64,000 nt of DNA from assembly GCA_000245075.1 (NCBI GenBank), contig JH599949.1:1-64000 (forward strand). The letters run 5' to 3'. The position numbers and the translations under genes were made by a program. The notes under the pieces were generated by a model that saw only the letters and a program-made list of their open reading frames with translations, had not been told where the DNA came from and made no database searches. Source of the DNA: Acetobacteraceae bacterium AT-5844 (GTDB lineage Bacteria; Pseudomonadota; Alphaproteobacteria; Acetobacterales; Acetobacteraceae). Shown in pieces: positions 32,586 to 37,361 of the stretch. Within the stretch, counting starts at the first letter, position 1. Every line of letters starts with the position of its first letter.

Positions 32586-34073
32586 TCAGTCGGCCTTCAG
32601 CAGGCGCCGCACGCGGGTAAAGCCGCCGGCCATGGCGCGGCAGTGGCAGGCCACATGCGGCGCGATCTTGTCGCACCATTCCCGCGTGGCGGCATTGGCG
32701 GCGGTGAGGCGCGCAGCGGCTTCGCGGGCTTCGCGCGCCAGCTTCGCCTCGTCCAGCCCCAGCACCTTCCCATCCCGCAGCTTCCAGGCGCCGCCGACCA
32801 TGACGTCGCGCACCGCGCTGCCATCCTCGGTCCAGACGAGCTGGTTCGCCACGTTGTTCAGCGGCAGCCAGTTGATGTGATCGAGATCGAGGAAGGCGAG
32901 GTCCGCCAGCTTGCCGGGCACGATCACGCCCGCATCGATACCCATGATGGCGGCGGAGCCCGCCGTGGCCAGCCGCACCGTCTCGGCGGTGCCAAGCCAT
33001 TCGTCGTCCTCGGCACCTTCCCACAGGCGGGAAGCGAAGGCGGCCAGACGCATCGCCTCGAACATGTTCTGGTTGTCGGCGGAGGAGGAGCCGTCGGTGC
33101 CGATGCCGACGGTTACTCCCGCCTCGATGGCAGCCCGCGCCGGCGCGATGCCGGAGGCCAGGCGCATATTGGCGCCCGCATTATGCGCCAGCCCGGCGCC
33201 GCGCTTTGCCAGCAGCGCCAGATCCTCCGGCGTCAGCCACACGCCATGCGCCACGCTGAAGCGCGGGGTCACGAGGCCAAGGCGGTCCATATGGGCCAGC
33301 AGGGTGGAGCCATAAGCGATCTCGCCGCCGGCCGCCTGATAGCGGGCCTCCGAGACGTGGGTTTGCATGCGCAGGCCGAACTCGTCCGCCAGCTTCTGGC
33401 AGCCTTGCATGAAGGCATCCGTACAATGCAGCGGGATGGTGGGCGCGATGCCGAGCGTGATACCAGCCGCGCCGTGTTTCCAACTTCGCGCCACGCCCTC
33501 CAGCGTGCGGAGGATGTCCTCCATGCCGGCCATGCGCATGGCGGCGGCCCGCTCCCGGTGTTCCTCGGGGAGAGCCTCGACCAGCCCGGGCGTCGCCTGG
33601 AAGAAGGTCTTGTCTGCGATCATCGGCGCCAGCACGGCACGCAGCCCAGCCTCGGCATAGGCCTCGGCGATGCTGTCCAGACCGTCGGCGGTGGGGCCAG
33701 GGAACTCGGCATGCAGGTCGAAGGCCGCGGTGCAGCCCTTCTTCAGCATCTCCACCGCGTTCAGCGTCGTGGAAAGGCGCTTCTCGTGCAGCCCACGCCC
33801 GCCGCCGACCCAGGGCGCATGCGCCAGCAGAAGAGCCAGGTCCCACTTATCGCCCGCACCCTTGGCCAGAGCACCATGGCCATGGGTGTGGGCATTGATC
33901 AGCCCAGGGATGACGAGGCGCCCCGAGGCATCATGGGTGGCGGCGTCCTCCACCTTGGCATCGGCGGGGAGCACGGCGGCGATGCGGTCTCCCTCGATGA
34001 GAAGGGAGGCGAGGGGGGCGTCGTCGGCTTCCGGGTTCAGCACCCGGGCGCCGGTGATCAGCAAACGTGTCAT
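32586..34073 (-). CDS. Amidohydrolase of the TRZ/ATZ (chlorohydrolase / SAH deaminase-like) family
   Basis: 495 aa metal-dependent deaminase/hydrolase. Metal site GLINAHTHGHGALAKG, second His in QTHVSEARYQ, third His in VAHGVWLTPED and catalytic Asp in GIGTDGSSSADNQNMFEAM. Members include guanine deaminase, SAH/MTA deaminase and triazine hydrolases; the pattern is closest to the SAH/MTA deaminase-like group, but substrate cannot be assigned. Start chosen at 34073 (MTRLLITGARVL); an ATG at 34082 is an alternative. Convergent with fusA. Confidence 0.88.
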   Translation of the reverse strand: MTRLLITGARVLNPEADDAPLASLLIEGDRIAAVLPADAKVEDAATHDASGRLVIPGLINAHTHGHGALAKGAGDKWDLALLLAHAPWVGGGRGLHEKRLSTTLNAVEMLKKGCTAAFDLHAEFPGPTADGLDSIAEAYAEAGLRAVLAPMIADKTFFQATPGLVEALPEEHRERAAAMRMAGMEDILRTLEGVARSWKHGAAGITLGIAPTIPLHCTDAFMQGCQKLADEFGLRMQTHVSEARYQAAGGEIAYGSTLLAHMDRLGLVTPRFSVAHGVWLTPEDLALLAKRGAGLAHNAGANMRLASGIAPARAAIEAGVTVGIGTDGSSSADNQNMFEAMRLAAFASRLWEGAEDDEWLGTAETVRLATAGSAAIMGIDAGVIVPGKLADLAFLDLDHINWLPLNNVANQLVWTEDGSAVRDVMVGGAWKLRDGKVLGLDEAKLAREAREAAARLTAANAATREWCDKIAPHVACHCRAMAGGFTRVRRLLKAD

Positions 34074-34157
34074 GGCTGCCATCCGTCCAGAGGCCAGGAT
34101 GAATGGCAAGCCCTCTCATGCGCGGCTATATCCCGCCGCTGCGCAGCGGAGATCGGA

Positions 34158-35639
34158 ATGACAGTCGGAATCGATATGGGCAGCACCAATACGGGCGCCC
34201 CGGCCATCCTCGACCTGGAGGAATTGCTGGCGACCCGGCTGCTGGTGCAGGGCAATTCCGGTTCCGGCAAGTCCCACCTGTTGCGCCGCCTGCTGGAGCA
34301 ATCCGCGGCCTGGGTGCAGCAGGCCATCATCGACCCCGAAGGCGATTTCGTCACCCTGGCCGACCGCTACGGCCATCTGGTGATCGACGCGGCGGAGCAT
34401 ACCGAGGCCGCCTTGCAGCGGGCGGCGGACCGCGTGCGCACGCATCGCATCTCGGTCGTGCTGAATCTGGAAGGGCTGGATGCGGATGGGCAGATGCGCC
34501 ACGCCGCTGCCTTCCTCGGCGGGCTGTTCGATGCCGATCGCGACCACTGGGCGCCAATGCTGGTGGTGGTGGACGAGGCGCAGCTCTTCGCGCCTGCCGC
34601 CGCCGGCGAGGTATCGGATGAAGCGCGCCGGGCCTCGCTGGGCGCCATGGCCAACCTCATGTCGCGTGGCCGCAAGCGCGGTCTGGCGGGTATCATCGCC
34701 ACGCAGCGCCTGGCGAAGCTGGCCAAGAACGTTGCCGCCGAGGCCAGCAACTTCCTGATGGGCCGCACCTTCCTCGATATCGACATGGCACGTGCGGCGG
34801 ACCTGCTCGGCATGGAGCGGCGCCAGGCCGAGATGTTCCGGGATCTGCCGCGTGGCAGCTTCGTCGCGCTCGGCCCGGCGCTGTCCCGCCGCCCGATGCC
34901 GGTGAAGATCGGCGCCGTGGAGACGGAGTCGCGCGGCACCAACCCGTCGCTCATTCCCCTGCCGCAGACGGCGCCGGAAGACGCAAGGGAGTTGGTGATG
35001 AGTGCGGTGGCTGAGCCGGCCCGGGTTCGCCTGCCGCCTCGCCGTGCGCCCGCCGCGCCGCCGCCGGATATCCTGGCGCAGCTCGCCCAGGCGCGCCCGG
35101 CCATCTCCCAGCCGCGCGTGGAGCCGCCGCCCACCGCGGAGGAAGCCGCTGCGCGCAAGCGGAAGCTGGAAGAGATTCTGCGGCAGATCCTGGCGGAGCC
35201 GGAGGCGGCGTTCCGGAACGTGTCCGTGCTGTACCAGGATTTCCTGGTGCGTCTGCGCATCCATGCCGTGCCGGGCAAGCCGCCCGAGATTCCGGCATTC
35301 CGCCGCATGCTGGCCGTGGCGCGGGCAGGCGTCTCCGCCGAGGCCGCGGAAGGCGACGAATGGCAGCGTGTGCAGGCTCGCGCCTCCCTCCTGCCGGAGG
35401 ATGTGCAGGGTGTCTTCCTGCTGCTGGCCCGTGCCGCGCTGGAGAAGGGGCCGTGTCCCTCGGACACGGTTATCGCCCAGGCCTATGGCACACGATCCGT
35501 GGGCCGGGCGCGGAGGCTGCTGTCCTATATGGAAGAGCAGGGGGCCATCGTCTGCCGGCCAGACGCCGTCGGGCGGCGTATCGTCGCGCTGGTGGAGCTG
35601 GGCTGGGAAACGGCGCCGGGCGACCCGAACGCCATCTGA
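34158..35639 (+). CDS. HerA-like hexameric ATPase (DUF87/FtsK-HerA superfamily)
   Basis: 493 aa. Residues 1-260 form a HerA/FtsK-type ATPase: Walker A QGNSGSGKSHLL (32-39), Walker B MLVVVDEAQLF (134-144) and GRKRGLAGIIATQRL with a sensor/arginine-finger-like segment. A Pro/Ala-rich linker (about 275-335) and a helical, winged-helix-like C-terminal region follow. Start ATG 34158 with GGAG at 6-nt spacing. No NurA, SIR2 or other nuclease gene is adjacent, so its partner is unknown. Role in DNA processing or defence is a family-based possibility only. Confidence 0.82.
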   Translation: MTVGIDMGSTNTGAPAILDLEELLATRLLVQGNSGSGKSHLLRRLLEQSAAWVQQAIIDPEGDFVTLADRYGHLVIDAAEHTEAALQRAADRVRTHRISVVLNLEGLDADGQMRHAAAFLGGLFDADRDHWAPMLVVVDEAQLFAPAAAGEVSDEARRASLGAMANLMSRGRKRGLAGIIATQRLAKLAKNVAAEASNFLMGRTFLDIDMARAADLLGMERRQAEMFRDLPRGSFVALGPALSRRPMPVKIGAVETESRGTNPSLIPLPQTAPEDARELVMSAVAEPARVRLPPRRAPAAPPPDILAQLAQARPAISQPRVEPPPTAEEAAARKRKLEEILRQILAEPEAAFRNVSVLYQDFLVRLRIHAVPGKPPEIPAFRRMLAVARAGVSAEAAEGDEWQRVQARASLLPEDVQGVFLLLARAALEKGPCPSDTVIAQAYGTRSVGRARRLLSYMEEQGAIVCRPDAVGRRIVALVELGWETAPGDPNAI

Positions 35640-35665: not shown

Positions 35666-36211
35666 TCAGGGCGGGGTGACGCCCCGTACCACAGCCTCGA
35701 ATTCCGGCCGGCGCTGCGGGAAGTCCGCTTTCTCCGCGACGCAGACGATATGGGTACGGCCGCGTGGCGTCTCCATCAGGCCAAAGAATGTGGTGATCTG
35801 CTGTGCGCGGGGCGGCAGATCGGGGCGCGGCTTGAAACTGCCTTGCATCATGACAGCGCGGAACAGGCCGTAATCCACCGTTCTGGCGCCCGATAGATCG
35901 TAGAGCGTACTCAGCGCCCGCCGGGCCGCACTCTGCCAGGCCTCGCTGGCCATGGCGGCGTTGATGTCCTGCTGGCTCATCCCGGCATTCTGCGGCGCCG
36001 GGGAATAGGCCACCTGACAGCCCAGTTCGGTATCCTGTGGACGCTGCACACTGATGCGTGCGGCCTGGCGCTGGCCGGGTGTTACGTGCTTGGCCACATA
36101 GCCGGGCGGCGGCTCCACGGTCAGGCCCGTGGTGCTATCGCGGAGCGGAGCGGCCATGGCCGTGCCGGCCAGCAGGCCAGTGGCCAGGAAGGTGGTAAGG
36201 CGGAGGCTCAA
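35666..36211 (-). CDS. Secreted protein of unknown function
   Basis: 181 aa from a TTG start at 36211, with GGGAG 7 nt upstream. The N-terminus SLRLTTFLATGLLAGTAMA is a clear Sec signal peptide with an AMA cleavage site. The mature part contains STTGLTVEPPPGYVAK and two cysteines. I recognise no family. An ATG-based start further upstream would destroy the signal peptide position. It converges on the HerA-like gene with 26 nt between stops. Confidence 0.7.
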   Translation of the reverse strand: MSLRLTTFLATGLLAGTAMAAPLRDSTTGLTVEPPPGYVAKHVTPGQRQAARISVQRPQDTELGCQVAYSPAPQNAGMSQQDINAAMASEAWQSAARRALSTLYDLSGARTVDYGLFRAVMMQGSFKPRPDLPPRAQQITTFFGLMETPRGRTHIVCVAEKADFPQRRPEFEAVVRGVTPP

Positions 36212-36222
36212 GGCGTATCTCC

Positions 36223-36243
36223 CGTTATCCAGAGGAGATAACG
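36223..36243. promoter_or_regulatory. Inverted repeat upstream of the secreted-protein gene
   Basis: CGTTATC and GATAACG arms (7 bp, perfect) separated by 7 nt, starting 12 nt upstream of the TTG start and overlapping its leader. Could be an operator; not followed by a U-tract. Confidence 0.4.
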
Positions 36244-36344
36244 CGGCCCGTACCGCCCCGCAGTCACTTCTGGCGGATTTGTGCGTGGGGCGCCGCCAGG
36301 AGAGAGGCGCGCCGGGGGAGGGTCTCCCCAGGCGCGGGACTGTA

Positions 36345-37361
36345 TCAGACCTGGCGCTCAGAGGCCGGCGGCAGGAACTTGTCGGTAAACATGCTGGCGG
36401 CGGCGGGCGGGTTCTGAATGCCATAGGCCTCGGCATTTACCTTCACCAGCATCTCGGCGCGGGCCATGTCCAGATAGCCGAAGCCGTGCTGCTTCACATT
36501 CGGCGTCAGGATGCAGCGGTCGCGCGTCATGGCGAAGCGGCGGGCTTCCAGCGCTTCGTCGAACAAAGGCTCGCGCTTCTTCAGCGCGGCAAGGCCGGCC
36601 GGAATGTCCGCCAGCAGCGCACGCAGGCCGAGGATGGAGGATTTCACGAAGGCCGCGGCGGCTTGCGGGTTCTTCTCCAGCCACTCCGCGCGGGCGACGA
36701 CGGCGCTGCCATAGAGGTCGAGGCCGTTCTCGGCATAGGGCCAAGCGACGATATCGTCTTCCTTGATGCCGACGCCGACGAGGTTGAAATAGGTGGTGAA
36801 CAGGAAGCCTGTCACCGCATCGACCTGCCCCTGGGCGAGCATGGTATCGCGCAGGTTCGCCGCCATGCTGGTCCACTGGATCTTGCCGGTGGAGATGTTG
36901 GCCGCGCGGGCGAAGGCGGGGAAGATCATGCGGCTGGCCTCGCCTTCCGGCGCACCCAGCTTCTTGCCGTCCAGCCCTTGCAGGGTGGTGATGCCGCTAC
37001 GCTTGGTGGTGATCACCGCCGCCGCCGTGCGGTCGAACACCTGGTAGATGGAGACGAGGCGCTTCTCCGGATTGTCGGCGTTCAGCTTCACGGCGGTGCT
37101 GATATCGGTGAAGCCGATGTCATAGGCGCCCGAAGCCACCTTCACCGCCGTATCGCCGGAGCCGAAGCCGCGATCCATGCGGACGGAGAGGCCGTTCTCG
37201 CGGAAGATGCCCCTGTCCTCGGCCAGTGCCCACATGCCGTGGTTGCCCTGCAACGCCCAGTCCAGGGTGAAGCGGATTTGCGTGGTCTGAGCATAGGAAG
37301 GCCGGATGGCCGGCATGGCGAGGGCCGCGCCGGCGGCCGTGAGGAAGTGGCGACGCTGCAT
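36345..37361 (-). CDS. NMT1/THI5-like ABC transporter substrate-binding protein
   Basis: 338 aa periplasmic receptor of the SsuA/TauA/ThiY class. Signal with Tat-like MQRRHFLTAAGAALAMP and cleavage near SYAQ. Family hallmarks: IRFTLDWALQGNHGMWALAEDRGIFRENGL and the binding segment GSGDTAVKVASGAYDIGF. Ligand could be a pyrimidine precursor, sulfonate or nitrile-type solute; not assignable. No permease or ATPase lies next to it. Start at the second ATG (37361), which begins the signal peptide. Confidence 0.9.
   Translation of the reverse strand: MQRRHFLTAAGAALAMPAIRPSYAQTTQIRFTLDWALQGNHGMWALAEDRGIFRENGLSVRMDRGFGSGDTAVKVASGAYDIGFTDISTAVKLNADNPEKRLVSIYQVFDRTAAAVITTKRSGITTLQGLDGKKLGAPEGEASRMIFPAFARAANISTGKIQWTSMAANLRDTMLAQGQVDAVTGFLFTTYFNLVGVGIKEDDIVAWPYAENGLDLYGSAVVARAEWLEKNPQAAAAFVKSSILGLRALLADIPAGLAALKKREPLFDEALEARRFAMTRDRCILTPNVKQHGFGYLDMARAEMLVKVNAEAYGIQNPPAAASMFTDKFLPPASERQV

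Follow-up and report, generated by a model that had tools for sequence, protein, structure and literature searches.

What does a HerA/FtsK-type ATPase do when no partner is encoded beside it? Such a gene lies in a contig of Acetobacteraceae bacterium AT-5844, within the stretch of 64,000 nucleotides analysed in this work (the window). A preliminary description of this DNA had read the product as an ATPase with intact Walker motifs and a C-terminal tail that might recruit a nuclease, and had considered an uncharacterised housekeeping or phage-defence role. Judged from alignments and a predicted model, the 493-residue protein is a HerA/FtsK-superfamily motor with intact catalytic motifs, and a part in chromosome maintenance seems likelier for it than one in phage defence. 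Coordinates of the features are collected in Table 1.

Table 1. Features of the gene and its two direct neighbours (positions in the window).
Feature	Residues	Positions	Strand	Basis
Complete gene: stand-alone HerA/FtsK-type ATPase, tail helical and winged-helix (C-terminal)	493 aa	34158..35639	+	ORF, translation, full-length orthologues
RecA-like HerA/FtsK motor core without HAS barrel or four-helix bundle	1-256	34158..34925	+	Pfam DUF87, VIA-align to SsoHerA 4d2i_A
Walker A GNSGSGKS	32-39	34251..34274	+	21 aligned sequences: S36 nearly invariant, others invariant
Walker B LVVVDE	135-140	34560..34577	+	D139, E140 invariant in 21 sequences
Arginine-finger region R170-G-R172-K173 and sensor-1 Q183	170-184	34665..34709	+	Invariant (21 sequences); lines up with GRK and SQR/TQR in HerA structures
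Pro-rich linker	257-324	34926..35129	+	Low-confidence model, low conservation
Helical part of tail	325-409	35130..35384	+	Tail model
Winged helix	410-482	35385..35603	+	VIA-align to LexA, weak hhalign to FtsK gamma
Amidohydrolase, divergent neighbour		32586..34109	-	PF01979, E 1.6e-51
Putative secreted protein, convergent neighbour		35666..36436	-	No Pfam match

The gene and its annotation

The reading frame opens with the ATG at 34158 and closes with the stop codon at 35637-35639. Relatives share the amino end of the protein, and some of them have in-frame stops close upstream, at 4, 10, 12, and 13 codons (loci L071, L012, L066, and L027, respectively); this indicated that the start at 34158 is correct and that no amino-terminal domain was missed. 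The gene is single copy in its own genome, where the remaining matches have E values of 0.5 and worse and correspond to a 567-codon frame of contig C150 carrying an FtsK gamma domain. Apart from this gene, the genome encodes a true FtsK with its gamma domain.

"ATP-binding protein" was the sole name in the three annotated full-length orthologue records examined. No description of the 493-residue protein was found in a literature search of titles and abstract openings on HerA, COG0433, MADS/Mad8, TIGR03862/YhiN, Tn-seq, and winged-helix topics; the family may have been named already in the 2004 FtsK-HerA census. Neither a literature match nor a phenotype was obtained for SMc00484, which from gene order we take to be the locus tag of an orthologue.

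A reduced HerA/FtsK-type motor

The early assignment to HerA/FtsK-type ATPases with intact Walker A and B motifs held: an alignment of 21 sequences shows no variation at K38, S39, D139, and E140, and the Pfam family DUF87 (HerA central domain) was matched above cut-off (E 1e-7). The clade is described as carrying a sensor-1 glutamine at the end of core strand 4 and an arginine finger upstream, before this strand (outlined in PMC10853773). Walker A (G32-S39), D139/E140, R170/R172, and Q183 occupy the corresponding places here, according to the 21 sequences and the alignment to HerA chains. Among PADLOC profiles the best was mad8 (E 2.3e-15, profile positions 14-314 of 314), with several HerA profiles ranking behind; the mad8 match stops at residue 266, ahead of the tail. 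The packaging ATPase family phrog_2666 was also matched (E 1.2e-15), and NCBIfam HerA equivalog models were matched far below their cut-offs. A PDB search with the alignment profile returned no chain at E <= 0.001, whereas the single-sequence search did give matches.

The full-length predicted model (pLDDT 79.1) was aligned by VIA-align to Sulfolobus HerA 4d2i_A (Z 25.5, rmsd 2.6, 239 residues aligned), with lower values for FtsK 2iut (Z 18.8, 219 aligned) and for B204 of STIV2 (4kfu; Z 18.2, 196 aligned). The fold of the motor and the GRK and TQR/SQR motifs are thus shared with HerA of the HerA-NurA pairs of Sulfolobus, Thermococcus, and Deinococcus. HerA is described as composed of a HAS barrel, a RecA-like core, and a four-helix bundle (PMC11291478), the HAS domain being presented as the contact surface for NurA and DUF4297 (PMC12977600, PMC11291478). 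In the AT-5844 protein only the core of this architecture is predicted, followed by the extra helical/winged-helix tail. Model residue 1 pairs with residue 117 of 4d2i, and with residues 111-153 of those listed HerA-type chains whose alignment starts there; since the upstream stops of relatives fix the amino end, the N-terminal HAS barrel is missing. The four-helix bundle, an insertion in the motor of HerA, is missing as well, because the two Walker motifs are about 100 residues apart, as compared with about 290 in 8ziq, and no four-helix insert was present in the predicted model. A minimal motor core, of around 205 residues, is likewise found in the viral packaging NTPase B204, which in contrast has no tail.

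Linker and C-terminal tail

The proline-rich linker and the helical, winged-helix-like tail proposed at first were both recovered by structure prediction. Values of pLDDT were mostly below 55 across residues 251-320 of the full model, and the tail (residues 325-493), predicted alone from 32 sequences, was well folded (pLDDT 91.5, pTM 0.83). Its winged helix aligned to LexA 1jhh_A (VIA-align; Z 8.7, rmsd 2.3, 71 residues aligned), and a similarity to the LexA DNA-binding family of Pfam stayed under the cut-off (E 0.04). By hhalign, the FtsK gamma domain gave a weak match to the recognition helix and wing, over only 29 columns (probability 63%, E 7e-5); the score of 30.1 was not reached in any of 200 column shuffles, the sole control (maximum 18.7). 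With E values of up to 10 allowed, Pfam did not list FtsK_gamma for either the protein or its tail, and Foldseek returned no match for the tail at E <= 0.001 in PDB or BFVD. Residues 325-409 had no clear match and were barely covered by any structural match. The winged-helix matches are generic: since a Z of 7-8 can reflect a common arrangement and Foldseek gave no match at this threshold, they speak of fold and not of function. The model thus places a DNA-binding-type winged-helix fold at the end of the tail, as a statement about fold only.

In FtsK the order of parts is motor, linker, and winged helix, and the gamma domain loads or steers the motor. The AT-5844 protein has a like order, although it starts at the motor, has no N-terminal membrane domain, and its motor is nearer to HerA in the comparisons above; we use the likeness as an analogy and claim no membership.

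Genomic neighbourhood and candidate partners

As first described, the two direct neighbours, an amidohydrolase and a putative secreted protein, are encoded on the opposite strand. The amidohydrolase gene accompanies the gene within about 1.5 kb in five of 15 congeners and in two relatives of other genera, making 7 of 26 relatives in all, and a relative of the secreted-protein gene lies within 1.5 kb in 13 of the 15 congeners checked. A Pfam scan of eight flanking genes in the window gave metabolic, transport, regulatory, translation, or unmatched products, with no MADS-like gene and no nuclease, SIR2, or other effector, in agreement with the preliminary description. NurA (PF09376) was not found in the AT-5844 genome by a search that was positive in 6 of 14 control genomes, and it occurred in one of 150 Acetobacteraceae genomes; this sole NurA (L261, G434:C507:26575-27486) belongs to a genome without a match to the gene.

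These observations bear on the idea that the protein serves as motor in a DNA-end-processing machine whose two halves are unlinked: the ring would feed DNA to a nuclease encoded elsewhere, outside the NurA family, and recruited by the tail. HerA-NurA stands within the same motor class, the motor carries no fused effector, and a housekeeping nuclease could serve as partner, since HerA of D. radiodurans is said to stimulate RecJ (PMC12977600); however, the HAS barrel is absent, NurA is nearly so from the family, no recurrent nuclease was found beside the gene in relatives among the families listed, and the last part of the tail has a DNA-binding-type fold. We regard such a machine as unlikely. 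The more specific suggestion that the tail recruits a HerA-type nuclease is unsupported, because the surface that contacts NurA and DUF4297 is lacking and NurA was not found in the genome.

Clustering of neighbours (80 named loci; 99 loci) gave lineage-bound synteny, except for a TIGR03862 flavoprotein (HI0933 family) in Acetobacteraceae. Over the 99 loci no other same-strand neighbour kept its position constant in more than four; the flavoprotein was directly upstream in 16 (15 within 300 bp), and rpsD followed the gene in four rhizobial loci. Motor and flavoprotein occurred together in 61 of the 150 Acetobacteraceae genomes, the motor only in 6, the flavoprotein only in 38, and neither in 45 (Fisher 2e-9, a value that ignores relatedness). 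They were adjacent on one strand, with the flavoprotein upstream, in 29 genomes. An operon partner was sought and the idea rejected; the pairing with the flavoprotein may be inherited synteny, and in AT-5844 the two genes are on different contigs. YhiN of E. coli, of the same HI0933 family, is an rRNA dihydrouridine synthase. "Solitary," the term of the preliminary description, holds for the gene in AT-5844 and also in relatives, save for the flavoprotein that lies next to it in some Acetobacteraceae.

Direct neighbours in relatives were also compared with PADLOC. From 51 of the 99 loci, 97 mechanically called ORFs of 100-900 residues were picked, one per side, and 95 of them were used; the two neighbours of L195, one of which overlapped the gene, were left out. 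At E <= 1e-10 no family recurred among the 95, each listed family having one member, and the commonest Pfam family among the best 25 of 101 was HI0933_like, present in six.

Distribution, selection, and descent

An orthologue was present in 15 of 16 congeneric genomes, in 2 of 5 other members of the family, and in 1 of 16 other members of the class in one sample; the lone congener without a match is a 71%-complete genome, and in another (G009) the match is split in two pieces. Larger samples gave matches at E <= 0.001 in 73 of the 150 Acetobacteraceae genomes (67 with E < 1e-50, a count that takes in the broken or partial copies of G409, G502, G520, G526, and G530), and in 37 of 385 genomes of the class (20 at E < 1e-100; at most four candidates were scored per genome). 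Among 398 genomes of the phylum there were 55 matches, 53 of them strong, and all fell in the own genome, the same family, or the same class, in a listing that names a minority of the genomes without a match. With 67 of 150 genomes of the family and 20 of 385 of the class, the gene is not needed by the whole class. Presence is near-complete and context shared within the genus, occurrence in the family is patchy, and no constant partner was found. Both genomes with the broken copies G520 and G530 are of 2.0 Mb, and the gene is retained in several genomes of 1.9-2.2 Mb (e.g., G431, G466, and G497). Among the 53 strong matches, that of L293 (G609:C1:255194-256177; genome of 1.5 Mb, family code f174) has decayed and contains many stop codons. 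In another genome a second, motor-only relative (residues 5-283, E 2e-82) lies in a 637-codon frame beside the full-length gene (G803:C1:4056737-4057579).

Orthologues with the same tail also occur in rhizobia, bradyrhizobia, azospirilla, Methylobacterium, and Sphingobium. A search of named species gave at least 565 relatives among 595 candidate stretches, and the best 80, which were kept, include Roseomonas, Acidocella, Azospirillum, Bradyrhizobium, Rhodopseudomonas, Mesorhizobium, Ochrobactrum/Brucella, Microvirga, and Xanthobacter. A record named Frankia sp. RB7 (L153, JAUEPE010000007.1) holds a 67%-identical, Bradyrhizobium-like copy and may be mislabelled or contaminated. Another one (L161, CP090106.1), titled pSymB of S. 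meliloti, looks like a mislabelled chromosome, because of its length of 3.7 Mb and because the neighbours of the gene there include isocitrate dehydrogenase, murI, and rpsD.

Selection is purifying in core, linker, and tail. Median dN/dS over 91 pairs of 14 congeners was 0.055, 0.215, and 0.217, respectively, so that within the genus the tail is under no tighter constraint than the linker. Mean pairwise identity in the 21 sequences was 80% for the core, 42% for the linker (residues 251-324), 42% for the helical part, and 53% for the winged helix, so that between genera the helical part is no better conserved than the linker. Comparison of Acetobacteraceae with other families gave 80% identity for the core and 60% for EF-G, the core exceeding EF-G in 196 of 196 pairs; among Acetobacteraceae themselves the values were 83 and 86%, with the core higher in 23 of 91 pairs. 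A motor better conserved between families than EF-G, under strong purifying selection, is annotated in the three records examined as "ATP-binding protein" only. In a tree of 28 sequences two outside genomes fell among the Acetobacteraceae with weak support, and Acetobacteraceae as one clade was not rejected (p-AU 0.261). The tree and the small growth of distances between families may reflect old transfers; alternatively, most sites may be fixed and the rest saturated.

A phage-defence ATPase akin to Mad8, Sir2-HerA, or DUF4297-HerA, as contemplated in the preliminary description, would fit the mad8 profile as best PADLOC match, the short HerA-type core in common with Mad8 of MADS, and the occurrence of a short motor relative near a DpdA-like gene on a sphingomonad plasmid (L163). 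In contrast, the gene is kept in nearly all congeners with shared neighbours and under purifying selection, PADLOC families do not recur among the 95 direct neighbours of relatives, and it differs from MADS in its neighbours and in the tail beyond the mad8 match, and from Sir2-HerA and DUF4297-HerA in lacking an effector gene among the eight flanking genes, a HAS barrel, and a four-helix bundle. A defence role is therefore improbable.

The sphingomonad plasmid relatives (L163:7881-14946, L235, and L236) are proteins of 401-404 residues with a different tail. One such DUF87 protein (WP_010408937.1, 401 residues) is 46% identical over 285 motor columns, with no tail similarity found to the AT-5844 protein, and its next gene encodes a multi-HTH protein. 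In L163 the motor relative is followed by a multi-HTH protein with weak Myb/GcrA matches and, further on, by HATPase-like and DpdA-like genes; judging from these matches, this is possibly a DNA-modification or plasmid-maintenance cluster.

Plasmid matches numbered 58 in 72,556 records, of which 21 hold at least 80% of the protein, including those of Methylobacterium and Sphingobium. Two of 50,697 phage records matched, in the motor only. Viral contigs gave no match to the single protein and three to the alignment, with the gene at the contig edge in each; links to phages are thus almost absent. Least probable of all is a domesticated plasmid or phage motor for DNA transfer or packaging, now serving the cell in DNA export or uptake: the minimal motor like B204, the phrog_2666 match, the short relatives on mobilizable plasmids, and the precedent of TdtA, described as an orphan HerA-type motor in DNA donation by Thermus (PMC5365140), would agree with it, but the 21 plasmid records that contain the bulk of the protein measure 0.69-4.6 Mb, one of those examined being typed conjugative, and no transfer gene recurs beside the gene among the families listed.

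Proposed mode of action

Our preferred reading, in which we place about even confidence, is that of a soluble, probably hexameric, tail-directed translocase of double-stranded DNA for maintenance of the host chromosome. We infer the hexamer, translocation, DNA binding and loading by the tail, and the cellular role. Duplex DNA would be encircled by six motor cores, which would pump it at the expense of ATP with the conserved residues of the Walker motifs, the arginine finger, and sensor 1. On flexible Pro-rich linkers, the six tails may touch the DNA through their winged helices, and this contact would load or steer the ring. In the cell, the pump would clear or move DNA in segregation or repair, rather than in defence. 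If it were a chromosome translocase besides FtsK, HerA-type motors would work without HAS barrel or nuclease. Orthologues are found in workable genera (Sinorhizobium, Azospirillum, Bradyrhizobium, and Sphingobium).

Upstream sequence signals

SOS control was considered and rejected: GTTC-N7-GTTC boxes with up to one mismatch were present upstream in 15 of 99 loci as compared with 28 of 297 random stretches, a small excess that is not a signal. GANTC (CcrM) sites were found in the 100 bp upstream of 47.5% of 99 genes vs. 17.2% of 1,158 control genes when stretches were unfiltered (30.8% of 39 vs. 13.9% of 466 controls in Acetobacteraceae). In ORF-free upstream stretches the frequencies were 30/52 vs. 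85/350 outside Acetobacteraceae and 4/19 vs. 25/192 inside. According to our own grouping of loci, sites were present in 11 of 13 of the xanthobacter/bradyrhizobium type (p 0.0002), 9 of 14 rhizobial loci (p 0.011), and 5 of 7 azospirilla (p 0.02), with 4 of 13 in sphingomonads (p 0.45), 2 of 7 in f70 (p 1), and 3 of 5 in the others (p 0.06). Control by GANTC/CcrM remains a lead, because close relatives in the first two groups share one leader and the upstream stretch in our window has no GANTC site.

Still more tentatively, and with doubt outweighing confidence, the gene may define a class of soluble "FtsK-like" pumps in alphaproteobacteria that has no name yet, in which a stripped HerA motor, steered by sequence-reading winged helices of its own, would act on the chromosome beside FtsK, coupled to the flavoprotein in some Acetobacteraceae and perhaps to the CcrM cycle in rhizobia.

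In orthologues of Bradyrhizobium/Mesorhizobium type (L085, L086, L094, L111, L207, L284, L285, L292, and L294-L299), a common leader contains a TTGnTAAGCC-like element and GAGTC, a site of CcrM (GANTC) type, 8-12 bases ahead of the start.
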